From the NCBI RefSeq assembly GCF_964355755.1, contig NC_092670.1, forward strand, positions 26,151,795 through 26,215,794: a stretch of 64,000 nucleotides of DNA. The letters run 5' to 3'. Both the position numbers and the translations under genes were made by a program. Under the pieces are notes generated by a model, which saw only the letters and a program-made list of their open reading frames with translations, was not told the origin of the DNA and ran no database searches. Each line of letters opens with the position of its first letter. The stretch's first letter is position 1. Source of the stretch: Antedon mediterranea. Its lineage: Eukaryota; Echinodermata; Crinoidea; Comatulida; Antedonidae. Positions 6,301 through 59,439 of this stretch are shown piece by piece.

Positions 6301-8079
6301 TTAAAGCATTTTCAATGGTTGCTTTTGGTACTCCTTTATCCTTAGCCAATTTGATGGCTTGCATAAGAGCTGTATTTACATCTGGGTTTGTGCCACCATC
6401 TGAAATTATATATTTTCTTCAATTATTAAAGGAAAACCAGTGACACATACAATTTTTAGTAAATAAATATATATAAAAAATTTATATAAAATTTAAATAA
6501 AATGTTATGACAACAAAGATTGACATTTCGTAAACATTCTCAAGAGTAAAATTAACTATACAAAATATAAAACACCAAAGTGTGACAGGAAATACTTTAA
6601 AAAATAGTAGGAAAGACTGAAAAGATAGGCTCCTCCTCTCGGTAATTATTAAACAATTTTGCTTTGATTTTTGTCAATTTCTATGCACTTTTTGAGCTAC
6701 AGCTGATGGCCTAATAAGGAAGAATGCCGATCACACAATCAGCACCGTAAAAAAACCAGTTGCCTCTTTGATTGAGTCATTTTGTTAAAGAGGTTTTTTC
6801 AACTCACAATCCAAAGCATTTCATTAATTAAGCAATCAAATTTAGATTTACAATATTAGGCAATACTAAATAATTGACTGTATCGGTAAGACAAATATCA
6901 TGATTTATTAGATGTTGTCCTATGATACCTTTGTTGTGTTCATTAATACATTGATAAAGGTGCAGAGTATAGCCGAGAATTGTACACAATGCATTTGTGG
7001 TTAACAAGCTTGGGTTTGGGAGGATTCGGCCCGGGACTATTCGGCCCAGGACGATTCGGCCCCGAGACGATTCGGCCCCGAGACGATTCGGCCCCGAGAC
7101 GATTTGGCACACTTAAATTTATCAGCTTTGATATGCATTTAATAAGCATAAAATAAGCTTTTTTGCTCAAACTTTATTTTCAGATAGACAATGGGGTAGT
7201 ACTACTAGGAATAAAGATGCAATAAAGCAAATATTTTGAAAACATTGTCGAAAATAATATTTTTTTAAATCACGCAAAAGATGTAAACAAGTTACACCCT
7301 CTGTTGGCCGCTTGGCGAATGCACGAAATAAACAAGGTTTTCAAAGTAATAAATTGAATATAATATAAAATTACATTTTTTAGTAATTTATTATATATAT
7401 TATATCAATATTGTCAATATCAATAAAATACGGATTCTTAAACACCTTTAAAAACTTGATAAATACCAACAAAAAATGAATATGAATTTGGTTTAAAGTG
7501 AGACGTTTCGGCCCCCAAAAGTGGACCGAATAGTCCCGGGCCGAATCGTCTCAGGACCGAATCGTCCTGGAACCTTCTTGCGAATGGTTCCGTAATGTTT
7601 CCGAAATATCTGATCTTTTTTTTCATTAAATTTTATTTTAAAGTTATACAGTTTATTTTACAACTCCCTGGTAAATATCTTTTAATTGGAAATTTATATA
7701 TTTATTAACACTAAAAGAATTAGATCACAAGTAGCTTCTTACCTCTAATTGCAATGCGTATTTGTTTAACAAATTTGGAAATTAGGTCTGCTCTTTCTTT
7801 ATCTTTTGGACCTTTGATGTGTCGCACTTTTGACCACTTATTATGCCCAGCATAATCAAATCTGCAGACATGTAAAGATCGAATTTGCAATATAGTATTT
7901 AATCTAATAGGTGCTAGACAGATTTCAGAGTTCCATTGTCTACTGTATTGTGTTGGGGTGGGCCATGAATTAACATAATGGAAACAATGACAGCACATTT
8001 TAGCTCTTAATCTTACGCGTTTTGTACATTTTGCTAAAATGTGCATCACTTTCAATGAATTCATTGCGTTCAGTAGCAT
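3374..8079 (-). CDS. TACO1: Translational activator of cytochrome c oxidase I (TACO1/YebC family), 5 coding exons
   Basis: Mitochondrial YebC/TACO1-family protein; in mammals TACO1 binds COX1 mRNA and promotes its translation. Coding exons in transcript order: 8079-7743, 6399-6293, 4258-4128, 4038-3876, 3598-3374 (963 nt, 320 aa; human TACO1 is 297 aa). All introns are GT..AG and phases join cleanly. Residues 1-75 are basic and poor in acidic residues, as in a mitochondrial presequence. Residues 77-90 carry the family signature [14 protein letters not shown]. Exon 2 reads [12 protein letters not shown] and exon 4 starts the [10 protein letters not shown] block, both typical of YebC. The start at 8079 is preceded on the minus strand by a T-rich tract and AG about 4 nt before the ATG, so a 5'UTR intron probably ends there; an alternative Met lies 5 codons downstream. 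Intron 1 carries a TU-like transposon. DCTN2 is divergent, 7.3 kb away. Confidence 0.93.
4349..4391. repeat. Short near-perfect hairpin in TACO1 intron 2
   Basis: CACTCTTTAGCATGGAGGTA is followed almost directly by its inverse, ending TAAGAGTG. A second inverted pair (GCATACTGTA / TACAGTATG) lies just downstream, at 4391-4418. The stem of about 20 bp with a tiny loop is shorter than a usual pre-miRNA, so a small palindromic repeat is more likely. Confidence 0.7.
4420..6290. other. TACO1 intron 2, remainder
   Basis: No coding block is recognised. An imperfect inverted pair built on AATGAGTTATCCG lies at 5207-5219 and, inverted, at about 5284-5297; it may mark a degraded element. The rest is AT-rich. 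Confidence 0.4.
7018..7567. mobile_element. TU-like foldback transposon with tandem-repeat inverted ends, copy 1
   Basis: The left end holds about six direct copies of a 15-16-bp unit built on GACGATTCGGCCCCGA. The right end holds three units in opposite orientation (GGCCGAATCGTCC). Together the arrays act as terminal inverted repeats around a ~400-bp AT-rich unique core. The core is about 85-90% identical by eye to the second copy at 61692-62224. Sea urchin TU elements have this architecture (outer inverted-repeat domains made of 15-bp tandem repeats), so a non-autonomous foldback element is the likely identity. It has no coding capacity. It sits in TACO1 intron 1. Confidence 0.75.
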
Positions 8080-8329
8080 TGTTCTAAAAAAAAAAATACA
8101 CATAAAAACATTAGTAGAAAATCATAAGTGGAAAAGGCACTCTGGGAAGGTATAAAATTGGTCAGCAATAAGACATGAAAGAAACTGTTGGGCATCTAAA
8201 AACCTCCAAAAACTAATTTTGATAAACGACACGGTCCCTAGATAGCTGGAAATGGTACTCTCGCACCATTAAGATAAATGGCACCTCTAATTGGCACTAT
8301 AATGTTCTCTGATCATAGCCAAACATAAA

Positions 8330-9000
8330 TACTGTAGGTAACCGCAACATTCCATTTTTTGATGTACATCGGAAGAAGGCTATATACAGGGGAAAATTTC
8401 ATTTTAAAATTTTGTTTAGCAATATTGCTAATCAAACTGATTTTTTAGTCGAGAAACATAGTTTTGTATTGTATTTTTTGCTACACAAATTTAAAAATCT
8501 GTAGCAAAATGGTTTTGTATAGCTTTTTGCTATGCTACACTGGCGAAATTATTCCCTGTATATATACTTTATGCATGGTGACTGCCAGTGATCTAAACAA
8601 TAGATACATGGTTGTCTGGCGGTGTAGTTTGTACGAATCATTCATGGTCTAGCTCGCTGTAGTGCGGTATTTGCATCAATATCATGTTATATCCAGGGAC
8701 CAAAAATGCGTATTTATTTTTCAGGTGAAAATTGGCAATTCATTTGCTACTCTTTGAAATTTACAGACACGTATCACGTACGCTCATACAGGGAAGAAGT
8801 TAGAGTTATTCATGAACAAGTTAACGATTTTTTCAATTTACGAATAACCTTTTGTACTTTGGGGCACATACAGTATTGGAGGATTTTCAGAGATGAGGTG
8901 AGGTTATTGGGCATGTCGGGGATGGGGGTTTGCAGTCGGTTAAGGGGGATTCATTGTAAAAGGGGATTCATTGTAAAAGGGGGTGCCATAAAATAAACCA
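8330..9000. repeat. Dispersed repeat shared with the hAT interior at 47340-47760
   Basis: Several blocks match in order: CATTCCATTTTT, GTCTGGCGGTGT, TTTGTACGAATC, CAGGGACCAAAA and TCATACAGGGA occur here and at about 47360-47600. This is probably a degraded copy of the same element or of sequence it carries. The 96-codon plus frame at 8706-8996 lies in the repeat and has no recognisable family. A C-tract follows at 9007-9019. Confidence 0.65.
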
Positions 9001-30400: not shown

Positions 30401-33400
30401 AATTCGTTAACCCAAGGTAGGATTAAATAATTTATAGTGTAGGCCGCCGAAACTATACTAGATAGATAGCCTCGACTCTCTCTCTCAGACTCTGCGTGAG
30501 CTGAGAGGTCCACTGACCCGATGTCGTCTCGTCGGCGGATTTCCGTCCAAATTAGGATAACCGATGCGTAGGCCTAGCTAGGGTGGCTACAAAAATTGAC
30601 GTCTACTATCTTTAGATAGGATTTTAATTAGCAAACAATACATTGTTTGTTTGCATTGTCCATGCTTCAAAAGGCGATGACAATGGTGTTTACTAACCCT
30701 ACGAACCACCCTACGATCGACGCGTAGATAATTATCATAACAATACATCGTAGACTACGTTCAGAGAACAATGACCTACGATGAATTTTACGTGCGAGAA
30801 TACCATTTCCGGCCATCTAGAGGTGTCATTTATCAAAATTCGGCTCGCCACAGGCCCAACCATGGTGGGCCTGTGCCTGGAATACTTAATCAAAATAATG
30901 GCTCTCCTCAACATATTTAGGAGAGCCATTAGGAGCTCTCCTCTTATATTTATAAATCAAGGTCTGCTACAGTATACACATGGAAACCCTGGTTGAGAGG
31001 AAAAAATATGATTGGTGAGCATTTCATGTAAAAACTCATCTGAACTGGCTAGACAGGATAGGATCTGTGGCAAAGTGAAACTTTGTTAAATGACGCCCCA
31101 GATAGCCTGAAATGGTACTTTCGCACATAAAATTTATGATAAATGACACTTCTAATTTGCAAGAAAAGACACTTTCATATATAGCTTGCTACCAATGATA
31201 TAATCCCACTCCCTAGAACACAAAATTGGGCTGACTTTAGGGGGATGGACTACAGTATACCTGGGGAAACCCTGATTGAGAGAAAAAAATGATTGGTGAA
31301 CATTTCTTGTAAAAACTTATCTGAACTGGCTAGAGAGAGGCCTACATCCAGACCAATACCCAAGGATATACAGTACGTAATAAAAGTATCTCTGTTTAAT
31401 AACCCAAAGGTAACAGATATAGAGCAAAGAATTGCAAGATTGGAGGCAAGTATAGGAACAGAACCACAGAAACTGGTGAGTAATCATATGTGAAACAATC
31501 TGACATTTTATTGATAATTTGCTAAAATATTTAAAAATCTCATTAGGGGAACCTTCCATTTAGATAATATTTATTTAGATAATAATGAATGAATATATAC
31601 AAAATAGAAAAAAGATATTAAAGTGAACATAGATAAAGCAGTAATTGGTAGTCATTATTATCATGGATCCCTTCTAGAAGTTAAAAACTTGTCTCGTAGG
31701 GACCCACAACAAAACACATTACTAAAAAAATAAAAATAACCTAGAATATATAATTATATAATTTAGGATAAAAAATTACAGTATAACATAACTAACATCT
31801 TCTTTATAAAAATTATTTAAATTATATTTCAATAGTTTCATGATAATTATAAATGAAATAACTACCGATATTGGTAAATGAAAAAAAAAATATGTATACA
31901 TAAATTATAATTCCAGTATATATATAGTATATACTATATATACATTATATATAGTATAGATTAAAGATTGCAATAATAAACAACAACTAATATTTTGTGT
32001 AAGACATAAATAGTATATGAGTATAAATAATCATAATAAGCATATTAACTAAGCAGTATAAATAATATTTAGATATATAATGATTCTTTAACTTTTTTCG
32101 GAAAGTAAATAATGATATTGACGTTTTGATATTTGGTGGGATATGATTCCACAAATTAGGACCTGATATAGTTATAAAAAATTTAGTTTTAGTAAGTCTA
32201 GCAAAAGGAATGTTTAAATAAGAAGTTCTTAAATTGTAATTGTGAAATTTGGTACGTTTACAGAGCATATCAATCATAGAAATAGGAAGTTGGTTTTTAA
32301 AATAATTAAACATAAAACTGGCAACTTGAACATTGTGGATATCCGTTAATTTTAATATACCAAGACGTTTAAAAAGGGGTTCAGATGAGGTTCTATATGG
32401 TGAAAAAGTAATAATTCTAGCTGCACGTTTTTGTAATTTAGTTAATCTAGCAATATTAGAAGAGTAATCTGCAGCCCAAATAATGTTACAATACTGGAAA
32501 TAAGGAAGTACAAGTGTGTTATAAAGAGAAATTAAAATATTTAGAGGGAAGAAGTGCTTAAGTCTGTTAATAATACTAATAGATCTTGATATTTTTTTCG
32601 AAACGTAATTTTGATGACTGGTCCATTTGAGGTTTTCATGAATATATACACCTAAAAAAAGTGTTTCAGTTTTGCGTTCAATTTGAATTCCGTCAAGAAG
32701 TATATTTAGGTCATCAACTTTTAGTTTACGTTGAGAATTGTGAAAAATTAAATAATTTGTTTTAAGAGTATTAATAAGTAATTTGTTTGAAATAAACCAG
32801 TCACAAAATTTTGTTAATTCATCATTGAATGTAGTAAATAATAAATCAATATTGGAATTAGAGTCAAATAAGGTGGTGTCGTCGGCGAAGGATATTACTT
32901 GCAATTTGTTACTGACATTAGCCAGATCATTAACATAAATAAGGAAGAGCAATGGCCCAAGCACAGATCCCTGTGGCACTCCGCAAGTAATATCCATCGT
33001 CGACGATGTACAAGATCCTAATGCAACATATTGTTTTCTATCTTTCAAATAACTATTAAACCAATTCAATGAAATACCTCTAATTCCATAGCACTCAAGT
33101 TTTTTAATTAAATTATCGTGATTAATAACATCGAAGGCCTTTGAAAGATCAATAAATAAACTTAATAAATTTTCTTTTGATTCAAATGAATTTGTAATAT
33201 TATTAATAAGATCTAAAACGGCATGGGATGTAGAGTGATTTTTTCGAAAACCATATTGGCGTTTATTAAGTATATCAAATTTTGTGAGATAATCAGAAAG
33301 TTTAGAATACATGAGTTTTTTAATAATTTTGGAAAACACTGAAAGTAGTGATATTGGCCGGTAATTAGATAGTTGACTTCGTTCACCTTTCTTGAAAATG

Positions 33401-36400
33401 GGCACAACTTTAGCTAGTTTTAAGTGTGTTGGAAAAGTTTGGCAAGATGATCCATGTCGATGAATGTGCGAACATAACCATTTGCATCTATGTAACGCAA
33501 TTTGTCAAGGTGGAGCCAGGCCTTTACTTTGTTGGAATGCAGGTATTTCATCGATGAGTATAATGCCTTTCTTCTACTTATCACTCTGCTGGTAAAATCA
33601 TCATTTACGTAGATGTTATTATCTTTAAATTTAGGTCTCACTTTTGGAGCTGCCTTGCGTACTCTTTCTTTAGTGGAATATCTGAGAAAGTATGCAACAA
33701 GTGGTCTCGGTTCATCCCTGGTGGTATTACGTGGTCCAACTCGATGGGCTTGTTGTATATCATCATTAGCGATTTTGATGCCGGTGGTATTGGAAATAAA
33801 TGAGGAAAGGAAATTAACAGTACCTTCACTATCCTCCGCTTGTTCGGGTATGCCAGTAAACCTCAGATTGTTACGGCGTTGACGTCCTTCTAGGTTGTCG
33901 ATTTTGTCGCGTATCTCTTCTATGCATTCCGTAGTGGATTGCTGCGTATCCTCAGCAATATCCTTCAGCTTAACATCCATGAAATCAGAATTTTCCTGCA
34001 TATCGGCGTGCAAATTCCTCCTAATAAAACCTAATAAAAACTGACATTTAACATAAAATTTGATGTTTTCTCATCCTGTTAATAAATCATACTCATAAAG
34101 AGCACATTCATCAGTTGACATAAGGTCAAAGGTCAAACTATGATGGTTTTTACAAAGTAGACAAATTTCATACTGTACGATTTTTTGTTTGTATGACAAT
34201 AAAAGATCTGTATCTGTATCTGAATAATTGTTAATGAGTGTCTCTGGCAAAATTAATGTTTAAAAGATCTAAAACATTATCCTTTCTTTCAAGATCAAAA
34301 TTGACTTCCTATGACAAGTGGTTTCTGAGATACAAGTACCAATTTGTGTTTGTTCATATAACTCTTGACCCTGACCTTTTGTAACATTTTTCAAAATGTG
34401 TAATAAATAACAAAATGTATATTTCGAATAATTTAAGACCAAATTTATGTGTCCAGGACCAGTAGCTACAGAGATACATACATGTTATGGGTCAAAGGTC
34501 AAAAAAGGTCACAAAATATCCCATTAGACTGAATAGGAATGTATACCTTCTGATCAATTTGAGACAAAAATTACCTTTTTTCTGTGATCAGTGGTTGTCG
34601 AGATTGTTGTTTGGTCTTATAACCTTTCACCTTGACCTTTTGACACATTTTCAAAATGTGTAACCTAGACCAAGTCAATTATTTTAAAGTATTGTCTAAG
34701 TAAAAATCTATTGATTGCTTTTAGTTAATAAAATGTTGTGGATAAAAGAGTTGAAACCGTCACTTAACAAACATGACTCAATAAAGCATAGAGATATTAT
34801 AGTGAACATAATCTCTGTGATCAAAGTAGACTTGCCCGAAGTCTGTATTCATTGTCTTTTTTTTTTTTATTTATTTGTTTTTATTTCGATTTTTGTCTGA
34901 AAATACAGACTTGTGAAACACATTATAGAAATTGATTTGCAGACCGCAAACATCCGATAAGATCGAGTACGTACAGTGCTGAATGTACGATCGAGACTGA
35001 ACAACTGTTGAAATATAAAATCGTGTTGCCAAGTTGTTTTGTTTATTAATTGTTTAGTACTGGCCTAGGCCTCGCACGTATGACCTGCCAAATAAAACGC
35101 CAATAAGGTACATACCACCACCGCCACACAACAGAGCTTCACCACCACACAGAACAGGAGGACAGGGTCTGGGTGGGAATTAAATCAAATGATCTCCGCA
35201 AAATAAATGATCCATTCAATGTTTGATTTGCAAAGAAGCTAGCCTATCATATCAAGACGAGTTTTCATGTTACTGTATTTGGAAAAATTCCCATAAAATG
35301 TTTACTAGACTACTAGGCATATAAAATCATTTCTAGCCTTCAGAAATTTTCATCAATGTACCCAAGTACACATTCTAAACGTAATAGCGCATGCACATCA
35401 TCTTAGTTGTTGAGTCTTTGAAATTCTGAAATATGAATATTAAAACTGCATACGAGTGAGTAGCCAATGGCATGCACCTGAAACTAGTCAACTAGATAAT
35501 CGTATGCACCAAGAATTCTTGGTGTAAAACCATGTGACTTGTGTGTGTTTCCCCAGACGGAGTATCCAAATTCAAGTAATACACGTATGAATTGGCATAT
35601 GTGCAAAAATATTTATATTTTTACTAATATTAGGACAAAACTCCGTCTGGGCCTGGAGTAAAATTGTTCAGTTAACAAAAGGATCAGGAGCCTATCTTTT
35701 CAGTCTCTGTTACTAGTATTTCCTGTCATCCTTTGGTGCTTTGTATTTTGTTAATTTTACTCATTTGTTCTTGAGAATGATTCCATGATGGTTTTTTTGT
35801 CATTAAATATTATTTTAAAGTTATAATAAATGTCTCTCCATTCAGTTAATTACTGTATTTTTTGATGTATAGTGTAATCATTTATTATGTACACATGTAT
35901 TTGACCGAAGAGTGATGGTTGTAATATCTGATTGGCTATCACAAAAAAAGGTCACAGCTCACAATGTAAACATTGAATGGGTTCTCTGATATCCAAGTAG
36001 ATTGCCTTTTACACTTTGTTTACAATTTAAAGATTATATATTCTTTCTTTTTTTTAGTCTGCACTGACTGCAGAAACTGCCTCCAAGACACTAACTGTGA
36101 GTATTGTTATTGTTAATTAGTTATCTCCACCTTAGCAGATAACTCCTTGTGATTGTATGAGATCATCATCATCTTTGTTGCGGATGTTCAGTCAGTACAT
36201 TCCCAATAATGATTTAGTTAATTAAAATAGTTTTCGAATGAACAAAATCGGTCATGGAGGAGAAAATCCATGGTGTACTGCATGATTGCATGGACATTAT
36301 TATGATTTTCAATCATCATTGTTTGTTGTTATAGAATCTCATCTACCAAAAGGAATTTTAGGCTACAATTGTTTTAACTCACGGATCAGGTGCCGTTTTC

Positions 36401-39400
36401 GGCCACCTCGACTTATACTCCGCCAGCCCACGCATTTCATAATAAGGTCGGAAAAATGCAGTTTGTTAACAAACCTACAATGTTCTTTTGTGAGGTGTGC
36501 AAATTAATGATTAAATTTTGACTGACGGAGGATCAAGTTGTAAATTACTCGGAAGCATTATTATTTTTTATCTACTCGACGGCGAATATAAATAGAAATT
36601 TCGCACGGTAGAGGCACAATGAACTAGTAGTAGGCTTATGTAAGCTAGGCCAACTTCTAAAAATAATATAGCGAATGTCCATTCGATCCAGAAACGATGC
36701 AGACAACAAAATATCGTTAAAACTCTAAATATAGTATCAGAACGTCAATCGCGCAGACCTACCTAATTTTTTTTTTTTGTCATATGGCAGGCCTGGAAAT
36801 GCGACGAAGATCGTGTATACCGTATATTTCGGTGTATAAGTCGCACCCCCTAACTGAGAGTAAAATATCGGTATTTTTTATATCGTCGATGTATAAGACG
36901 CACTTTATATTTCATCAAAACAATGTTTTTTTTAATTGTAATCAATATTATTGTAATAATATATTTTGTTATACAGTATCTATATATATACGGCGTCCTT
37001 TATTTAGGTTTTTTCTTACCTAGGCTCGGCCGCGGCCAGCCTCAACAAGTTCTTTCTAACTTGTTATTCATGAGTTTCGCACCCGCAACATCGAGTGCAT
37101 GACCGTGTGTGTAACACGCACGTGTGTGGGCTAGCCTCGCTTGATCAATTCGAGAGGGCGCACGTTTTCACAGACAATCGTATTCGATTAGTATCTATGT
37201 ATCCGAGAAGTGTGTACGCTAGGTCCATGCTATAATCAACTGGAGAATATACTAGTCAAATACCGTACACCATGTGGCCGACAAGAAGGGCTTGCGCTGG
37301 GGGTACGGCGGTCGGCGATCGTGCGTATAACTAACTATAAATAAATACTATTCCAATCGTAAACGTTTACAAATGAAATTTTATCGGAGCACCTAAAACA
37401 GCTCCATAATGAACAAATCTTTTCATCATATTTAGTATAACATCACGCTAAAATGCCTTGAAAACTAGGCAGAACCAGGTAGCCTAGGCTAGGCCTAGTA
37501 GCCGAATATAGCCTACTCCGGCCTAGCCAACGAGGTGACGATATCATTTATGTTCGGTGTATAAGACGCACCCTTAATTTAGAGGTCAAATTTGCGTGTC
37601 AAAAGTGCGACTTATACACCGAAATATACGGTACCTAGATTTTGTGTCACATTACATGAAACGCGATACTTTCTCTCTAAATTAACTGTTCCACACGTCA
37701 ATTCTTAGACTTGCCCCAAGTCTGTAATTATCTTTTTTTTTTATTTATTTGTTTTTATTTCATAATAAGAAACAAACATAATTTCGACCACGATTTTCGT
37801 CTGAAAATACAGACTTGTGAAACACGTATAGAAATCGATTTGCAGACCGCAAACATTCGATAAGAATGACGTAGGTTATCATACCGTATTTGGGTATATG
37901 GGGCGTGCGGTATGTAAATATGGATTTCGAATCAACCAATGATCATTTTGTTTCAAAATGAAAAAGATCGAGTACGTACAGTGCTGAATGTACGATCGAG
38001 ACTGTTGAAATATAAAATCGTAATGCCAAGTTGTTTTGTTTACTAATTGTTTAGTCCTTGGCCTAGGCCTCTTTCGTAGGTCCTACTCAATTCGCACGTA
38101 TGACCTGCCAAATAAAACGCCCATAAAGTAGGCCTACATACCACCACCGGCACACAACAGGGCTACACCACCACACAGAACAGGACAGGGTCTGGGTGGG
38201 AATTAAATCAAAATTATCTCCGCGTAATAAATGATCCATTCAATGTTTGATTTGCGGAGAAGCTAGAAGCCTATCATATCAAGACGAGTTTTCATGTCCT
38301 TGGGAAAAATCCCATCAAATGTTTACCAGACTACTAGGCATATAAAATAATTTCTAGCCTTCAGAAACTTTCATAAATGTACCCAAGTACACATTGTCTA
38401 AATGTAACATAGCGCATGCGCATCATCTTAGTTATTGAGTCTTTGAAATTCTGAAATATGAATATTAAAACGGTGTACGAGTGAGTAGCCAATCGCATGC
38501 AGCTGAAACTAGTCAACCGGATAATCGTATGCACCAAGAATTCTTGGTGTCAAACCACATGACTTGTGCGTGTTTCCCCAGTCGGAATATCCAAAATCAA
38601 GTAGTATACGTATGAAACGCCATATGTGCCAAAATATTTATCTTTTTACTAATATTAAGACAAAACTCTGTCTGGAACCCAGACTAGTCAATTCTGATCG
38701 GGATGTGAGGAGGGCTGCTGGGTAACTACAGAATACTTCTCATTACACAGTGACATGTCGTTATAATTGAATAGGCCTAGGCCTATGTTAATTCTTACCA
38801 TGGAATATATTGATTTTGCATATGTTTTTATGTTGACGTCGGTGTATCTATAATTCGCTAAGCCAAGGTAGGATTAAATTAATGGCGCAAGCCCAGAGGC
38901 CGCCGAAACTTGATTTCGATTCGGCCCACGATGTCGTCTTGTCCGGCTAAATTAGGCTAACCCAGTGCATAGGGCGGCTACAAAATGTGTTGTCTCCTAG
39001 ATAGCTGATGAGCTATAATAGATTCAAAAGGCATGATTTTGACAGTACTTTGTAACTTTTCCAACTAAAACACATGCAAATTGTCTAATTCAATGTGTTC
39101 GTATGGCGTGATTTAAAGTTTAAAATGAAATGAAATGGAGATGGAGATGGAGAAGGTTGTTATTGATGGCTGTAGCATGCCAAACCATGCCATACATTTG
39201 TAATATTATGTAAAAATAGATGTGGATGCTTTTTTATCTGACTGAAGTCTAAAAAGGTTTCTCTTTAATTTAACACTAAATTTTATTTAGGAAACTGTGA
39301 GTTTTCTACAGGAGAAACTTAACATTCTTGAACCAATCCAAGTAGATCATGTAGATGCTCGGTTACAAAGCTTGTTGATGCGTCTAAACCAAGCTAAAGA

Positions 39401-42400
39401 TAAGAAGAGAGCATTAGAAGATGCGGACAAAGATAAAAAGGTAAAACATATTTCTTTTCTTTCCTGTTGTAGGTATTCCTAGATTATTTTCTTTATTGTT
39501 TTCAACTTCATGGTCACAAATAAATAAAAACAAATTTATCTCTATTCCATTCAGATACATAAAACTAATTTTGATTTTACATCTGTCATTTAGTAAAATC
39601 ATTTTTTTTCATAATGGCCCAATGTTTTGCTTCGAAGGTTGAGTTTAATGGTGCCACCACAATTGAAACATTGTGCAATAATAATAATTTAATAATAATA
39701 AACTAAACTAAATTCTTGTTTTATAACAAAATTAAATATTAATTTATAAGGAAGTTATGGTGTACATAAAATGTTCCTTTTTTTTTACAAAAAGGCTGTT
39801 TTTGGCATTATTCATTTAGTTACAACATTACCAAAAAAAGGAAAAAAAGAATGAAAATGAACAACAGGTTCAAGCCTTGTCTTTTAAGGGGTGTGGGAGC
39901 GCGACTTATTTAACATATTCCTAAACTGCCCTTCAATGTGATTAAATTTAAGCACACTTGGTAAACTTCAGACAAAGATAAAAACATCACACCTACCTGT
40001 ACAGCACACCTACTACCTGTACAGCACACCTACTACCTGTACAGCACACCTACTACCTGTACAGCACACCTACTACCTGTACAGCACACCTACTACCTGT
40101 ACAGCACACCTACTACCTGTACAGCACACCTACTACCTGTACAGCACACCTACTACCTGTACAGCACACCTCCTACCTGTACAGCACACCTACTACCTGT
40201 ACAGCACACCTACTACCTGTACAGCACACCTACTACCTGTACAGCACACCTACTACCTGTACAGCACACCTACTACCTGTACAGCACACCTACTACCTGT
40301 ACAGCACACCTACTACCTGTACAGCACACCTCCTACCTGTACAGCACACCTCCTACCTGTACAGCACACCTCCTACCTGTACAGCACACCTCCTACCTGT
40401 ACAGCACACCTACTACCTGTACAGCACCCCCTGAATGTATTGAAGAAGTGCAATTTGTAGTATACCTACGCTTTTTAAGACATCCAAGCCATACAAATAA
40501 TTACAAAAATAAGGTGACCAATTTCCTAAGTGTTGAAGCCATACAAATAATAATTTGTTTGAATGTTTAGCGAACTGACCTGTATCTTTTTAACCAATTT
40601 GTAATTATTGTTGAATTTAAAAATATTTATGTGACTAGACTAGATAACATTGTAAACTGTATATCTTAATTTATTTTTTTGTTTGACATTGAAAAGAGAG
40701 AGATTGATACAGAAACCTCCAGGAAGGTAATAATTAAAATAACTTGCATAAAATATTTGCTTTTTATTTATTTTCTTAACATTTATAGTAGAACCCCTTA
40801 GGTAAATTCCTCATGATGTGGTTGTACCTGTAAGAAAATCAGACATATAAAGGTTTAAAGCCCTAAAATAAATGTACAAAACACAATAACTGCCATCTAA
40901 TACAAAATAATAAGTCACCTAATACTGAAAACATTCTCCTCTGGTTTTGATTAGTATTGATATATTAGTTCATCAATTATTGTAAACCAGTAAAATAACT
41001 TATTTGACTGTCAAGACAGTTTAATTTTCTTAAATGTTTAATTTACAAAACTGAGATTTGTAACTAAGAGGTTCTACTGTATTTTTATTTTATACACTTT
41101 ATGAATTCTTTAAAATAATATGTGATGTTGCTCTTACATCAAACATTTTTGTATATTTTGTTTAATCTGAACATTCTAGCTAGCCACTTTTCTGTATGTA
41201 CTGTACCAGCAATCATACTACTTTTGAGAGAGATTTTGGAAAAAGTAGGAAAAATGGCAAAATCAGCACTGTAGTCATGTTACAAGAGTTGTCAAAACAA
41301 AATAGATTATCTGATAAAAATCCTAGAAAGTAGGAAACCTTTTGGCATTTATTTATTTATTTATTTATTACCATATTTACGGAGGGTAGCCTATCCAGTT
41401 CCTAATAGAACTGATCATTTAGGGCCCTCGATAAAACAAACATACAGTACAACATATAAAATATTAAATATTCAAATGACATAAAATATATTAAAGGCTT
41501 AAAAATTTACAATGATTATATAAAATTCATATAAAAGTTAAAATCGTTGACAGATAAAAAAAAAATATATATATATATACACATAGTACGAACAATATTA
41601 ACTGGAAATAAATTGTTTAAGTTCACGTTTAAAGGAAATAACATTTTCAGATTGTCGAATGATTTTAGGAATCATATTAAAATACATAGGCGCTTTATAA
41701 CTGAAACATTGTTTAAAAATCTCTAAAGAAGGTCGAGGAATAATATAATTACAATTAGAGATGGATCTGGTAGTAGGTCGACCTCCAGGCTGAGTCCTGG
41801 TTAACATGCGACTGATGTAATTCGGAACGGTATTGATGGAAGCCCGATAGGCGAGACAACCAAGTTAAAACTGATAACGTTGAGAAACGGATGAGATATA
41901 AATGGCATATGTTTTGCCTGATTGGAGATGCTTTAACAAACACAGTGTTGAAATGAAATGTTGATTGTTCATTAGTACAGCATAGTGTGGAAATATATGC
42001 ATTGTAGCTTTTGGTTGGTTTTCTGATTTTCTTTTTAAATTTTAATAATTTAACATGGTTGAGGTACACTTGCATAACAGACAAATAATACTTTTTGAAA
42101 CATGTCTTACTGTCAACAATATTTCCCAGTCATTTAAGGGTATGTTCAGATCTATGGAGTTGTGCTTTCATATTCTTTTTATGATTTGTGATGGGTTTTA
42201 GAAAATGTTCTTTAATTACCGGTATTAATTTCATAATTCTTGTCTTAATTGTATTGTCTCTGACATTTTTAGTACATTAGTTTGTGTTTTTTTTTTTTTT
42301 TTATAGTTTTAATTTCATATCCTCTTTTCATTTAATATGCTTTATATCCAAATTAAAAAAAAATAAATAAACATTTATCATTATTAATTGTTATCACAGG

Positions 42401-44830: not shown

Positions 44831-46319
44831 TGTGTTAATCTGTGACCCTACTGTCCTGAATTGCACAAAGGTGTAGACGACATATATATAGTATAATCAA
44901 TGAATTACCATTCTGTGTACAAATTTTAATTACTTTCAACAAACCAAGTCAACTAAAAAAATTGGTTGGCCTGGTTAGCTGCAATATTTGATTGGTCAAG
45001 GACAACTGGTTGATATTACAGAACCACAGAAATTTCTCACAATTATGGACGTACAGAAATGCAAATAATTAATAGGGACACACAAATAAAAGCGTGTGAT
45101 AGCTATTCTTAATGAGCAAAGCGACTATACAATCTGGAAAATATTGTGTACAGGCTCAAAATCATGTGTGCATGACTAAAAACTATTACATAATCTATTA
45201 GTACGAGAAGTGATGGATCGGAGCTCCCAAGAACTTAAAAAAAACATGTGCATGAGATGGGTTAAGTTTATAATATGTCTTATCAAAAAGGGATTGAATA
45301 GAGTTTTGCATAACAATATTTGTGTGTGTAGTTGTTGAGCCTTTTTGAATACCCTTAGTAATATGGTTGTCATTTGCGATCACAGAAACTTAACTTACAA
45401 TCTCCAACTTCATGGTTTTTCATAACCAACAGGACTTTATTTGTCCTAGTTAAGGCCAATCACCTGTCACCTGATTGTCTACATCATACACAATAATGTT
45501 ATATTCAAATAATCTTATCTAGATTCTGTGTAGATAGAGAAAATTTAATTGTAATTAAAACTAGGCCAAAATAAAGTATTGTTACTATTCGATCTTCGTT
45601 GTTTGGTGTTGCTGGTTGCTATACTGTAGGTTTTATAGACATTCAATAATTTGTAGTATGTACTGTACCTTCTTCTCTGTTAATGTTATGAAGGTAGCTC
45701 TAATTTGGCTAAAAAACTATTTAGATCTGTATTCACCATCATTGATGAATACTGTGATCCTTGTGTGTACAATATTACAAATGACAGTCTATATGCAATA
45801 GTATTATAGTAATATGGCTATCCTTTGATAGATGTATAAATGGAATAAAGATATTAGCATGCTTAAATCATTGAGCTAGATTATTTATTGTTATGAATCG
45901 GACACAGATGATTATTATTAACACGCAAACTTTCAACCAGAGATTGCCATCATCATTTTGGGAGGTTGTGCATTCTCCTGGTCTAATAGTAATCGACTAT
46001 GCTCTCGCATACGCAAACCATTGTTATTATGCTCTCCTGGCTTAAGTGGAGCGTATTGGTAGCAACTTATTTTTTATCATGTGACCCACAATCATCCAAT
46101 CAAATGACAGGAATCTATTTTAGTGTTATATAAAACGTCTCATGAGGAGGGCCTCAAACACATATAAATTAAAAAAAAGGTTAACATGGGCTCGTTGCCG
46201 TCGCAAAATAACAAATACCCTTTTCACATCTGCCAAATGTAACAACTTGTAATCTCACTATCATCAACCCTATATACTCTAGTAGCTAGATCAACTTTCG
46301 TATGCACTTTGAGGTCCAG
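44831..46319. other. Convergent intergenic region, no gene recognised
   Basis: Only short non-conserved frames occur. The block ATGTGACCCACAATC..CAAATGACAGGAATCTATTT at 46080 also occurs in DCTN2 intron 11 near 44168, so it is a dispersed repeat. Confidence 0.45.
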
Positions 46320-46776
46320 AGAATTTGACTTCAGAAATTGGTTTAGGGTGGTCATTTTTGGCTTGGTTACACATTTTGAAACTGTGGCGAAAGGTCAACC
46401 ATTGGTCACAGCGAGGTAATTTTGGCCTTAAATTGATCAGAAGGTATACATTTATATTCAGTCTAATGGGACATTTTAGTCAAAAATGACCGGAAATGCC
46501 ATTTCTGACCTTTGCCCCACACCCCAGGGCATTAGACTTGCCCCAAGTCTGTATTATCTTTTTTTTTTATTTATTTGTTTTTATTTCGACCGCGATTTTT
46601 GTCTGAAAATACAGACTTGTGAAACACGTATAGAAATCGATTTGCAGACCGCAAACATCCGATAAGAATGACGTAGGTTATCATACCGTATTTGGCTATA
46701 TGGGGCGGGCGGTATGTAAATATGGATTTCGAATCAGCCAATGATCATTTTGTTTCAAAATGAAAAAGATCGAGAC

Positions 46777-49177
46777 GGTGACTACTTCTTCGCATGCAGC
46801 TAAAGTAAAATGACGTCACGTTAAAGCCTGTCGTCAAATAAGCGCGGAGCGGCGCTATACAATCTTTGATTTTACAAAATGTTTTCAGTGATAAATGATG
46901 GTGCGATCGGTGGTGGTACGGAAAATAAAATTATTCCGATATTGTTCCTGATAACAAAGAAGCAGATTAAATATAGTTGTTTATTTGACCCATTTGGCTT
47001 AGATGCCTATGCCTAGAAAGATTTTCTATGATACTATCTACTCACTAGCGGCCTAAAATACAGTATATTTGAGTAGTAGTTTATTAGTACACTACACACT
47101 ATCAGGCCATATCCTCCTTCATCGTTACCGCGTGGCATAGTGTACATCTGCACGATGCCACGGCTAACTACACTTCACTTCCCACCCACCAGTGGTGGCG
47201 CCAGCCGGGGGGGGGGGGCCAGGGCCCCCCCGTCGGGGAAAGCTGGCCCCCCCCGTCGGGGAGTATTGGCCATATTTGTCGGGGAGAAAAATATGATCAT
47301 TTCTTTTCTGGTAAAAAATAAAACAATATTAAGTGTACTACTATATATTTTAAGTAACTGCGGCATTCCATTTTTGACGTACGTACGATATACTGACAGC
47401 GAAGTAAACAGTATATGTGGTACGCATTTGTCTGGCGGTGTCTGTTTGTACGAATCTTTCACTCACTGCGGTATACGCGTCGACATATCTGGGCTGTATC
47501 ATATTACATCCAGGGACCAAAATATGTATTTTTCAGATTCCAGGCGAAAATCGAAAATTCATTTGCAACTACGCATCGACGTACGTTCATACAGGGATAA
47601 AGGTACGAGTTATGTTCTCACGGTTGAGTTTACGAATTGTTTCAATTTACCAATAACCCTTGCGTATATATGTTCGCTGTCGATTAAAGGGGTTTGGGTG
47701 GGGGTTCGATTGGGAAAAGGAAGCGGTTGGCCCGAACCATAAAACAGGGTCTGGTCACGTTTCTTTTCGCGCATAAATCTCGATCTAGGGTAGGTGGGTG
47801 AATAGGGTGGCTTACTTCTAAAGGGAAAAAAAAGATGCAACAAACCCGTGACCGTCGCTAGACGCGGATTCGGCGCACTTGACTCTTTTAATTAAGAAGA
47901 GTAGGCTAGAGCTATAGTTGTGTAAATAGGCCTACATAGTGAAAGAACTATTTATGAATTCAAGAGTTTAAAAAGAAAACGCAATTTAAAATCTTCGGAA
48001 AATACCCACAACTGAGTTATTTTCAAAACACATGCACTCCCACTACCAGCATCACGTTGTCTTAGATCGCTCTTCGTGTGAATGCTGACGTCATCACTCT
48101 CCAAAAATACACCATTTTCCGCCCTGGTCCGTGTGCAAGCGTTAGCGTGGACCTGTATATTTACACCCCTGTACAGAGTAGAGTGTAATATCGTGAACTT
48201 TTTTCTCGCGTATGAAGGTTTTTTATATAATGGTATGCAGTATAAACGATAAAAAAAACGATAAACATGATGTTCTTTTATTATTATTTCATAGGCATAA
48301 CATAAACATGAAATGTCTTGTTCTATGTACACGGCCGAAAAAACGGCATTTTATTGATTTGTGTTATAGACACGGCGATTACGGCAATCATCATTGTATA
48401 CAGACCACCAAAGCACAGTCGTACACTAAACACATGCACTATCGAGGCATTTTTGGATCAAAGTTTATTATTAGTTCGTCGAAAAAGATCCGTATTAATT
48501 AGAGTATTTAGGAAAGATTTATTTAAATTTACATTATTATGTGACATTGTTATTAAATGTAAATGGAAACAGTTGCTCTAGCCCATTAAACAGTGTGTAA
48601 GCATCTATTTTTTCAAAATTTTCTGAGGCTCTCGGGAGGGGGAATACCCCTCCCAAACCCACCCCCGCTTTCGCGCGTACGGCCCCCCGTGGGGGAATTC
48701 GGCCCCCCTGTCGGGGAATTCGGCCCCCCCCGTCGGGGAAATCCTGGCGCCACCACTGCCACCCACCCTAGCAGCTAGGTATGCACTGCGCTGCCACTAG
48801 GCCTAGGGCCTAGCCTATTTCGGATCTCATGTCTTGCAACATCTGAAAATACATAATGTACTAATGATACTGTACATTATTGTTATTTTTTATTCGCACT
48901 GGAAGGAAGTATCTAGGCTTTCCTGTTATGTTAAAATTAAATATATTATTTATTATCCTCAGCAGTGAAAAAAATTATATTTTGTTGTATATGCCGTGAT
49001 TTTAATTGTTAAAAACATGATCGTCAGTCGATGGCTCAGGAGTTTCGATAAATCTCGCGTCGCGCGTGGTGGAAAACACGCTCAGCAAGTTTGCTTCATA
49101 TGATGCATGATACTCTGTGACGACCCACTTTAACGTGACGTCATTTTACTTTAGCTGCATGCGAAGAAGTAGTCACC
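46777..49177. mobile_element. TIR transposon (GGTGACTACTTC ends) with 9-bp duplication, nested in copy C
   Basis: The ends are near-perfect inverted repeats of about 48 bp: GGTGACTACTTCTTCGCATG at the left, CATGCGAAGAAGTAGTCACC at the right. Each TIR contains TGACGTCA. The flank GATCGAGAC (46768-46776, 49178-49186) is a perfect 9-bp duplication. GG..CC ends with 8-9-bp duplications fit Merlin- or Mutator-like elements. Its own sequence is about 830 bp; a hAT-like element occupies the rest. No transposase is recognised. Confidence 0.85.
47190..48758. mobile_element. hAT-like element (CAGTGGTGGCGCCAG ends), innermost of the nest
   Basis: Perfect 15-bp TIR CAGTGGTGGCGCCAG / CTGGCGCCACCACTG, flanked by the perfect 8-bp duplication CCACCCAC (47182-47189, 48759-48766). 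Subterminal G/C-rich units (GGCCCCCCCGTCGGGGAA) are tandemly repeated inside both ends: about two at the left, four at the right. Several frames of 60-200 codons occur inside, but none shows hAT transposase motifs. Part of the interior matches 8330-9000. Confidence 0.88.
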
Positions 49178-50169
49178 GATCGAGACGTACGTACAGTGCT
49201 GAATGTACGATCGAGACTGTTGAAATATAAAATCGTAATGCCAAGTTGTTTTGTTTATTAATTGTTTAGTCCTTGGCCTAGGCCTCTTTCGTAGGTCCCA
49301 CTCAACTCGCACGCATGACCTGCCAAATAAAACGCCAATAAAGTAGCACTACATAGCACCACCGGCACACAACAGGGGCACACAACAGGGCTACACCACC
49401 ACACAGAACAGGACAGGGTCTGGGTGGGAATTAAATCAAAATTATCTCCGCGTAATAAATGATCCATTCAATGTTTGATTTGCGGAGAAGCTATAGCCTA
49501 TCATATCATGGAGGTATGTTCTTGGGAAAAAATCCCATCAAATGTTTACCAGACTACTAGGCATAGGCCTATAAAATAATTTCCAGCCTTCAGAAACTTT
49601 CATAAATGTACCCAAGTACACATTGTCTAAACGTAACATAGCGCATGCGCATCATCTTAGTTGTTGAGTCTTTGAAATTCTGAAATATGAATATTAAAAC
49701 GGTGTACGAGTGAGTAGCCAATCGCATGCAGCTGAAACTAGTCTACCGGATAATCGTATGCACCAAGAATTCTTGGTGTCAAACCACGTGACTTGTGCGT
49801 GTTTCCCCAGACGGAGTATCCAAAATCAAGTAGTATACGTATGAAACGCCATATGTGCCAAAATATTTATCTTTTTACTAATATTAAGACAAAACTCCGT
49901 CTGGAACCCAGACTACCCAGGGCATGTATGTATCTCCGTAACTACTGGTCGTAGACACTTGAATTTGGTTTTAAATTGTTCGAAATATATATTTTGTTAT
50001 TTGTTACACATTTTGAAAAATGATCATCTTTTCTCCAAATTTTCTGTTAGAATGAATGTAAATATGTGTATTTCTAACAATTTGATACTAAATTTAAGTT
50101 TCTACTACCAGTACTTACAGAGATATGAAGATGCCATGATATATTTCTTACAAAAAAGATATATTTTCC

Positions 50170-56400: not shown

Positions 56401-59260
56401 TGAACCAATGTGTGAATTAACTTCTTTTTTTTTTGCATTGCATAAAATGTAATATGTATTTTAGTAAGGTTATTTATATTGACAGGTAGGTAATTCTGAA
56501 ATACAACATAAAATATTGTTAAAAAATGTTAAAATGTGAAAAAAAAAAAATATTGCGTTAAAAAACTGTGTGGGTATTTTTTCTTTTCATTAAATATTAT
56601 TTTTCGTAAGTATACATTTTTTTTATAATTCTAGTATTTAAAGTTATATTTATAATCATATATTATTTTAATTGATTTTCGAACCGCCAAAAATAAGAAT
56701 TAAGCCCGTGCTTATTATGTGTTACGATTTCATTTGGAGCGCCGGGCCGAACGTAGACTCAGCCGCGCCTACTACAAGTTAAGTTATATAGGCCCCTAGA
56801 AGGTCTAAATAAAAGCCTGACGCTAAATTCTGCCTAAGAAATATCGGGAAGAAATTTTGTATTTAACAAAGTAATTACCTCAATGGTATAATTGTAACAT
56901 GTTTAATTTTATTTCTCTTCGATTATTCTAACCGAAAGTTGTACTTTGAATTGAAATATACGGAATAAAATTTAGGCCTAGAAACAGCGTAGACATACAA
57001 CGGCAACACAGGCCAAAGCGCGTTTCGGCCGCCTACATAGAATGGCTTACGGCCGCTGCATAGCCAAATCAAAGCTTCTTAAATTTCTTCGGTACATTTA
57101 TTCCTAACGTACTTGCTTTATATAGTAGATTTATAAATATTCCACTTATTAAATAATTTAATAAATCGGTAAAATTGACGTTTCGAAGCAAATATTCCAT
57201 GAGGCGACATTTTTCGACATGCCTCGTGTGCGGCGAAGACTAGTTCAGAAAATGGAACAGTCCACTGCAGGGGTTATCCAATCATTAATTAACGCGCTAA
57301 TACATGCATACCATGCACATTGTCTGGGCGACGGTAATTTAGTAATAAGCGGAGAACTGAATCCCCCCGTAAGGAAAATGGTAAACACTGATATTTATGG
57401 TAGGGATTATTTTTTTCAGTGGTTGGTCTTGTTGGCCTCTTCGCACGAGGTCCACGCAAAGTCAAATAAAACGATGTGGTTTATCAAACAGAAATATAAA
57501 TTAGCTTCAATTCAATACTAAATTAGCCAGATTTTGATAATGAGAAAGACTAAAAAATTAAATTTTTATCGTTAAAATTGACATTTGAGGCGGATGTACA
57601 TAATAATAATAACCGATTTACATATCAAAATAAAGAGTATTTAAAGCCTGATAACATGCTACAAAAATTACTCCACCACCTATTATGGACCTCGTGCGAT
57701 CGTGTTTTGAAAATGGGTAGGTGTTTTCCAAAGTTATTTTTAGCGCGCGGATTTCGGCTCGCCGGCTTTTGTACCTCATTTTTAACTTGCGTTTTCTATT
57801 AAAATATTTAATAAACATAGATTAAAAATATATGAAAATAATCCCTTAAACAAGATCTTTCCAGACATATAATTTTTATTCACATGTGTATATAAGAAAT
57901 AGTATATTTTTAACTTCAAAGACACGTCACTTTTTGAAATTTCACGAACGTGTTAAAATCGCGGTAACGAAAATCCGCTTCATTGGGATACCTACTATAA
58001 CAAATTTGTTAGTGGGTCTTTTCCCCATCCCAATATTTTTTTAAAGTACATCTCCGTTTTAAATATTTTTTGATATACAGGTACTTTAATTATAATAAAT
58101 CCAAAATCTAACCTTTCAACAAATTTGGATTTGACTTCTCTCCTGGCCTTCTTTTTTAGACCTGGATCTTTAAAAGCATCTTTGTTCACAACATTCTTGT
58201 TAACAGAAACATCTACTGAGTATCTAAATCAAAGTAATATTGGTTTGGGAATTATATTCTACACATAACTGCAGTTATAGACTCCAAGAAGTTGGAATGT
58301 AACACTTATCATCGCAACTTATTATATAATGTTTATGTTTAGTTTGCGACGTTTCAAGAAGCGAGTACCCAAAATTTTCACATCGCCTAGCAACACTCTC
58401 GACGTCAGACACCGGGTATCAACATTTGCACTTTGTATATAGAGTTCAGCGGTGTGACGTCGCATCGATAGAGGACGCTGCATGGTTGCTAGCCAACAAA
58501 AAATCCATTCAACGCTACTATGTTGGTAAACTGTATAGATCTGTATTTCTATCAAATTATGTATCTTAGCTTGATTTTTTTTAAAACTTAAACTAAAGTT
58601 GAAGAATAGATCATTAAACCATTGGTGACCTGAGAGTCACTCGGGCAGGTTGAATGCCCGAGCACGCATTGTCGCCTACCGTCGTGACGTCAGCACCGCA
58701 GAACTCTATGGTGTGCGCGCCAGTGTGTGCAAACGGATGTGAAACAATAAATTGGGTACTGTAGAGCCGCAAGTCGTAAAATCAACACAAGACATAAAAA
58801 TCAACAAAATACCTTTTAAAAATATGAGAAAAGGGTCCAAGTGTGCAAATAAAATATCAAAAACTGCTGGCCCAAAATGATTTTCATAGAAAGTTTGTTT
58901 TCAGAATCTCTATTCATGAGTATATATATTTATTAGTAGTTTGTGCAACATTTAACTGCTTTTACCTGTTTATTTATTTAGTCTAATGATTATTTAAATG
59001 AAAATTTACCTGGTCGGCATGAGATGGTTATAGTTATAAACCTTGACAAATGTTTTAATTTTGGATCGTTGCTTAGTTTTTTTTTTACTCATTCTTTTCG
59101 TCACTTTTCGAGGATAACGATCAATTCCTGCCACTAGGGCATGACCATACATTCTGTCTGATGAGCCATCATCATGATTCTTGACAATTACAGCTTTGCG
59201 ACCTGCAAATCGACCGCCAAGTACTAGAACCACTCGCCCAGGTTTCATAAATTTGCCCAT
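53432..59260 (-). CDS. RPL27: 60S ribosomal protein L27 (eL27), 3 coding exons
   Basis: Component of the cytosolic large ribosomal subunit. Coding exons in transcript order: 59260-59010, 58223-58113, 53480-53432 (411 nt, 136 aa, the human length). Introns are GT..AG with matching phases. The N-terminus [20 protein letters not shown] begins the KOW domain, followed by [12 protein letters not shown] and [15 protein letters not shown]. Exon 1 ends [11 protein letters not shown](R); exon 2 starts [20 protein letters not shown] and ends KSKFVE(R); exon 3 gives [15 protein letters not shown] and stop. On the minus strand CTTTTTCAG lies just 2 nt before the ATG, so a non-coding 5' exon is spliced there, as is common for ribosomal protein genes. 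Intron 2 is 4.6 kb and repeat-rich. It is convergent with DCTN2. Confidence 0.96.
53890..53960 (+). repeat. Possible tRNA-derived SINE fragment
   Basis: GTGACGCAGTGTG resembles a pol III A box, and GGTTCGAATC 35 bp downstream is a perfect B box; the intervening ACCGATCGTGAGGTTGTG is typical of tRNA-like SINE heads, and an A/T-rich tract follows. It does not fold into a complete tRNA (no acceptor stem), so a SINE head is more likely. It is in RPL27 intron 2. Confidence 0.4.
54797..55918. mobile_element. TTAA-flanked TIR element (piggyBac/Kolobok-like MITE)
   Basis: The left end AATGGATCTGAAATGGATTT and the inverse of the right end, AATGGACCTGAAATGGACTT, are inverted repeats of about 30 bp continuing into TCGATTTT. 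Both are flanked by TTAA (54793-54796, 55919-55922), the target used by piggyBac and Kolobok elements. No transposase is recognised in the 1.1 kb. It is in RPL27 intron 2. Confidence 0.7.
55930..58110. other. RPL27 intron 2, remainder
   Basis: AT-rich with poly-T tracts. One 100-codon plus frame (57219-57521) is present but has no recognised relatives or exon-like borders. No splice-compatible conserved coding block was found between RPL27 exons 2 and 3. Confidence 0.4.
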
Positions 59261-59439
59261 GGCTGAAAAAGAACATATACCAAGTGAGTAAACAAAGTTA
59301 AAATTTAAGAAAGCATCAATAGGTACAATGTCAGTCAAACATACCACTAAACTAGTGTAGGTTTTGCTTTTTGCCTAATAGCATTGATTGGTTTTTTTCC
59401 CTATCTATCATGTAATGAGCATCATCATTCATGCATTAC

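Follow-up and report, generated by a model that had tools for sequence, protein, structure and literature searches.

We propose that the nest found in the window, by which we mean the whole 64,000-nucleotide stretch that was analysed (C1:26151795-26215794 of a genome of 354,431,138 bases in 18 contigs), is very probably of an ordinary kind, made up of four cut-and-paste DNA transposons that appear to be non-autonomous, and that its history would have run as follows. A repeat, here called D, would have been present first, as a deleted copy. A hairpin-ended element would then have entered D, giving rise to a 10-bp target-site duplication, and a GGTGAC-ended element would in turn have entered the hairpin-ended element with a 9-bp duplication, most likely with a passenger already aboard. 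That passenger would be the hAT-type element that sits in the GGTGAC-ended element between the copies of an 8-bp duplication. The transposases for these movements would have been supplied in trans. Directly observed are the element ends, the duplications, the empty sites, the copies dispersed through the genome and, on contig C3, another GGTGAC+hAT pair that is nearly identical.

The nest and its junctions

The original prediction described a four-layer nest, and this description is upheld by exact ends and a perfect target-site duplication at each inner layer, together with copies lacking the insert elsewhere in the genome. The three element intervals and their flanking duplications lie where they had been placed, and only the length of the outer duplication and the limits of D have been amended. 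The duplication of the hairpin-ended element, given as 9 bp (CCAGGGCAT), is 10 bp long (CCCAGGGCAT); D starts near 46277 (CTCTAGTAGC..., with TA directly before it) rather than at 46320, and its sequence runs on from the proposed end at 50130 to about 50142. From left to right, the layers and duplications are:

46277..46532, plus strand: left part of D (layer 1), belonging to its left arm; starts CTCTAGTAGCTAGAT, preceded by TA at 46275-46276
46523..46532, plus strand: left copy of the 10-bp duplication CCCAGGGCAT
46533..49915, plus strand: hairpin-ended element (layer 2), 973 bp without its insert, high copy
46768..46776, plus strand: left copy of the 9-bp duplication GATCGAGAC
46777..49177, plus strand: GGTGAC-ended element (layer 3), 824 bp without the hAT-like element and one duplication copy
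47182..47189, plus strand: left copy of the 8-bp duplication CCACCCAC
47190..48758, plus strand: hAT-like element (layer 4), ends CAGTGGTGGCGCCAG / CTGGCGCCACCACTG, 15 bp, perfect
48759..48766, plus strand: right copy of CCACCCAC
49178..49186, plus strand: right copy of GATCGAGAC
49916..49925, plus strand: right copy of CCCAGGGCAT
49926..50142, plus strand: right part of D (layer 1), with a left-arm match to 50022 and a right-arm piece at 50021-50142; right terminus missing

A genome-wide search with each layer, the check for which the prediction itself had called, found dispersed copies with their own duplications. Sequential nested insertion is borne out in that each layer is a separate dispersed repeat, bears its own end duplications elsewhere and has empty copies for every junction. 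In each genome search with a DNA query 40 candidates were scored, so that copy counts given here are lower bounds and the uniqueness of a junction refers to the scored candidates. Twelve one-ended GGTGAC loci, four hAT loci that lack exact ends and the hairpin locus L047, which has no end pair, were left out of the corresponding rows.

Flank matches at random junction pairs drawn within the window were rare, with 193 at 8 bp, 60 at 9 bp and 16 at 10 bp in 3,962,937 trials, and a match of at least 8 bp appeared in fewer than 5 per 100,000. Since the three perfect matches fall exactly at element ends, this rarity rules out chance matching at the junctions. It also counts against an assembly artefact, in which one or more of the junctions would be a false join of repeats. 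Every layer is repetitive and repeats are open to misassembly, yet the duplications are perfect and placed at exact element ends at three levels, empty sites are known for all three insertions and the window contains 0 N bases; we regard a false join as extremely improbable. Among the 40 scored of 1530 first-look candidates, the left D/hairpin junction occurs in the window alone, and the same holds for the hairpin/GGTGAC junctions on both sides (40 scored of 662 and of 652, respectively). Nothing in the 40 scored candidates of each search thus suggests that the outer layers have moved as a unit too.

The remainder of the window carries several features of its own. A 20-bp tandem array of 21.8 copies lies at 39993-40427 and, with 99% matches, is apparently very young. 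The minus strand at 31987-34070 has two long frames that overlap and look like the reverse transcriptase of a LINE and the protein encoded upstream of it, and we take the frame at 59006-59374 to be like ribosomal protein L27 and that at 7720-8121 to be like a TACO1/YebC-type protein. Gene-like frames in the window suggest to us that the genome is that of an animal.

The four element families

As reconstructed from genome copies, the full D element measures ~3.4-3.6 kb and has long inverted repeats with arms of ~1.25 kb and repeated units of ~300 bp inside. In all four elements for which both ends were seen, TA lies outside CTCTAG at both ends; this agrees with the TA duplication of Tc1/mariner-like or other TA-target elements, but is inseparable here from a terminal TA of the element's own. 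The D copy of the window is deleted and right-truncated, its left arm being joined to a right-arm piece, and its inside is ~55 bp shorter than that of most listed copies. Its left half matches the genome at 91% over all 173 bases at one place and at 95-97% over 130-137 bases at others. Since the corresponding figure for the hairpin copy is 98-100%, D in the window has diverged further from its family than that copy has. The flanks of another D copy (L068, around 138-1960) presumably resemble 5S rRNA, which would suit an insertion of D into a 5S-derived repeat.

The terminal hairpins that give the second layer its name fold better than shuffled sequences (left z -5.7, right z -3.8). At least 40 copies, including that of the window, are listed with 98-100% identity over the first 238 bases (40 scored of 865 candidates), and the pairwise identity among 17 aligned copies runs from 95.3 to 99.2%. 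Sixteen loci were fetched, fifteen of them two-ended, and an exact 9-bp duplication is present at 12 of these 15, the other three having one, three and five mismatches. Helitrons are not known to make a target-site duplication, and the duplications at 12 of 15 two-ended loci rule out a Helitron as the source of the hairpin-ended element.

The original prediction had used two continuous copies in the window as the joined sites of the outer insertions, and a third hairpin copy lies close to them:

34240-34720, minus strand: second D copy, continuous and diverged; 7 bases of the target of the hairpin-ended element are missing
34827..35650, plus strand: third hairpin copy, with a left end and no recognised right end; GAC also missing
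37706..38686, plus strand: continuous hairpin copy with 9-bp duplication GTCAATTCT; without the GAC of the GGTGAC target

The copies chosen as joined sites are indeed continuous, as claimed, but each lacks part of the duplicated target, so that the window's own copies are inadequate as sole empty sites and intact sites were taken from elsewhere in the genome. For the insertion into D, the single 10-mer CCCAGGGCAT is intact in 6 of 12 D loci and the 9-mer in 10 of 12. For the insertion into the hairpin-ended element, three of 16 hairpin loci (L039, L045 and L051) retain the whole of the joined target GATCGAGACGTACG, and L040 and L048 have the GAC, with one base of the target changed.

The GGTGAC-ended element has terminal inverted repeats of 60 bp, with three mismatches in the aligned 60 bp, and its first 124 bases have at least 53 genome matches (40 scored of 186 candidates). 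Among 22 loci examined, 12 had one recognised end in the fetched stretch and 10 were two-ended; the 9-bp duplication is present at 6 of these 10 and absent from L001, L019, L025 and L037, the last being the C3 pair. The first of these, L001 on C7, is a hAT-free copy that carries CCACCCAC once and so provides the empty site for the innermost insertion.

Non-autonomous elements of the hAT superfamily have 8-bp duplications and short inverted repeats of the form CAG...CTG at their ends, and the element at 47190-48758 shows both features. Nine of the 13 hAT loci fetched, the C3 pair among them, have both exact ends, and all nine have the 8-bp duplication; the remaining four, having no exact end pair, were unscored. 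The longest stop-to-stop frame that touches the element is of 220 aa, with its start in the surrounding GGTGAC-ended element. A distant match (69.5%) to the interior of the hAT-like element, 47428-47661, lies in the window at 8612-8852.

The two 9-bp families, hairpin-ended and GGTGAC-ended, resemble Mutator elements (MULEs) in the length of their duplications only. The available text of one study accepts MULE duplications at 8-11 bp (PMC3903597). Duplications of this range, usually 9 bp, are found at 12 of 15 two-ended hairpin loci, with 10 bp at the window copy, and at 6 of 10 two-ended GGTGAC loci. The genome has 36 matches to the MULE transposase domain PF10551, and 16 stretches of 3-6 kb around 15 of these 36 gave nine weak resemblances to the hairpin ends, all at the four-error limit, and none to the other ends; the inverted repeats within six of the MULE stretches offered nothing usable. 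Some of the MULE matches lie in long open frames, five of them of 651 aa (C2:1382286, C2:15352026, C3:9339044, C5:1627366 and C11:21020252) and others of 637-707 aa, and these could be recent autonomous elements. For the hAT transposase PF05699 there are 59 genome matches, and the ends of our hAT-like element were absent from the ~3 kb read at each of 8 such loci.

A second GGTGAC+hAT pair and the order of insertion

The original prediction regarded the order D, hairpin-ended element, GGTGAC-ended element, hAT as fixed by the nesting, which fails for the last two steps on account of the near-identical pair on C3. This pair occupies C3:38634758-38637195 on the minus strand and agrees with the window in the hAT that it contains, in the site of that hAT and in the duplication around it; a query spanning the GGTGAC/hAT junction matched end to end at the window and C3 only (40 scored of 277 candidates). 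Over 2,393 aligned columns the two pairs have four base differences, all within the G/C tract at 47206-47221. Their indels comprise one of 45 bp, also in that tract, 2 bp at each of two simple repeats, a single C in a homopolymer and 3 bp at 49100. By comparison, the next-nearest of the two-ended GGTGAC copies compared is 92.6% identical, and the nearest of 9 other hAT copies, in an alignment from which the end filter removed L005, L010 and L014, is 99.28% identical. A pair so nearly identical, with its hAT at one site in two loci, argues that hAT entered the GGTGAC-ended element once and that the two afterwards moved, or were copied, together.

No target-site duplication surrounds the C3 pair. 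Its flanks (L037) belong to another dispersed repeat, which crosses the site without a break at each of the 38 other places listed (40 scored of 186 candidates). Compared with four uninterrupted copies of this repeat (L099-L102), up to about 17 bp are missing at the C3 site, in a short stretch that varies in length among those copies. The repeat yielded a 26-residue peptide with no Pfam family, and one open frame of at least 120 aa is listed for L099.

Nesting dates each insertion relative to the existence of its host element and not to the arrival of that host at this locus. With the GGTGAC-ended element and its hAT present at a second locus, hAT could have entered the former before the former entered the hairpin-ended element. 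We consider it probable that this is what occurred: hAT would have entered a GGTGAC-ended element elsewhere, on C3 or at an unsampled locus, and the pair would then have inserted as a unit into a hairpin-ended element already in place. The second pair, with hAT at the same site and with only indel or tract differences, fits this sequence of events, as does the perfect 9-bp duplication that surrounds the pair in the window, and the rice MULEs that carry the MITE Os0548 at the same site provide, in the available account, a precedent (PMC3903597). Against it, the direction of transfer is deduced from the missing duplication on C3. The hairpin copy of the window carries 7 substitutions that no copy among the 16 others aligned shares, against 2 to 16 in those others, a figure that is an upper bound on the copy's own changes and comes from a sample small against the 865 candidates; it suggests that the hairpin insertion in the window may be older than the split of the two pairs. 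Taken with the perfect duplication in the window, these substitutions favour, in our judgement with good probability, the view that the pair reached the window recently and already carried hAT.

The strict order of the original prediction can also accommodate both the nesting and the presence of the pair at two loci, if hAT entered the GGTGAC-ended element inside the hairpin-ended element of the window and a copy of the pair later reached C3, either without a duplication or by converting an older GGTGAC copy. A duplication-free copy would not be unusual for the family, as 4 of 10 two-ended GGTGAC loci, the C3 pair included, lack one, and a duplication-free capture on C3 of a copy derived from the window would make the strict order hold. 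A newest copy on C3 would nevertheless be expected to have a duplication, yet the perfect duplication is the one in the window, and no close hAT-free relative of the window GGTGAC copy was seen, the nearest two-ended copy compared being the one at 92.6%. We therefore think the strict order rather unlikely, and favour entry of hAT before the pair reached the window. It may also be, though we offer this only tentatively, that the GGTGAC-ended element with hAT aboard is a recently mobile unit of two transposons, and that C3 acquired its copy by duplication-free capture, as might happen when an excised linear element is taken up at a break. If so, nested elements could travel as cargo, by two entry routes.

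Comparison with known nested transposons

The Mutator/Foldback element Tm1 of root-knot nematodes has, in the available text of its description, duplications of 8-10 bp, mostly 9, in 45 of 53 complete elements (PMC3169594). The families described here are like Tm1 in the lengths of their duplications, and Tm1 likewise has MITE-like members and, in some cases, nested elements. On the basis of that description they are set apart by their ends, which in Tm1 are compound and made of tandem short motifs, whereas here they are short hairpins in the one element and 60-bp ends in the GGTGAC-ended element. The innermost layer is like the non-autonomous hAT elements in its 8-bp duplications and CAG...CTG ends; a transposase with these ends was not found at the 8 loci read.

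The passenger has its closest parallel in rice, where the available text reports that 107 highly similar MULEs have the MITE Os0548 inserted at one and the same site, 40 of them with an intact copy and 67 with a partial one (PMC3903597). There, as in the pair described here, a transposon multiplies with its passenger aboard, so that the time of the inner insertion cannot be read from the nesting at each locus. The rice case, as that text presents it, differs in that it concerns a plant and 107 copies of a coding element, whereas here there are 2 copies and no transposase was found for the element.

Nested transposons serve as a relative clock. Nesting is reported across eukaryotes, and tools such as REANNOTATE read temporal order from nesting level (PMC2672092), which is the same inference that the original prediction had made. 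As far as the available description of that tool goes, nesting level is there equated with insertion order, and the C3 pair is a case in which this is insufficient. The locus is a clean example: even with three perfect duplications and an empty site for each, the two innermost steps could have occurred in either order, because the elements concerned lie together a second time, nearly identical, elsewhere in the genome. Any claim of order should be preceded by a search for further copies of every junction.
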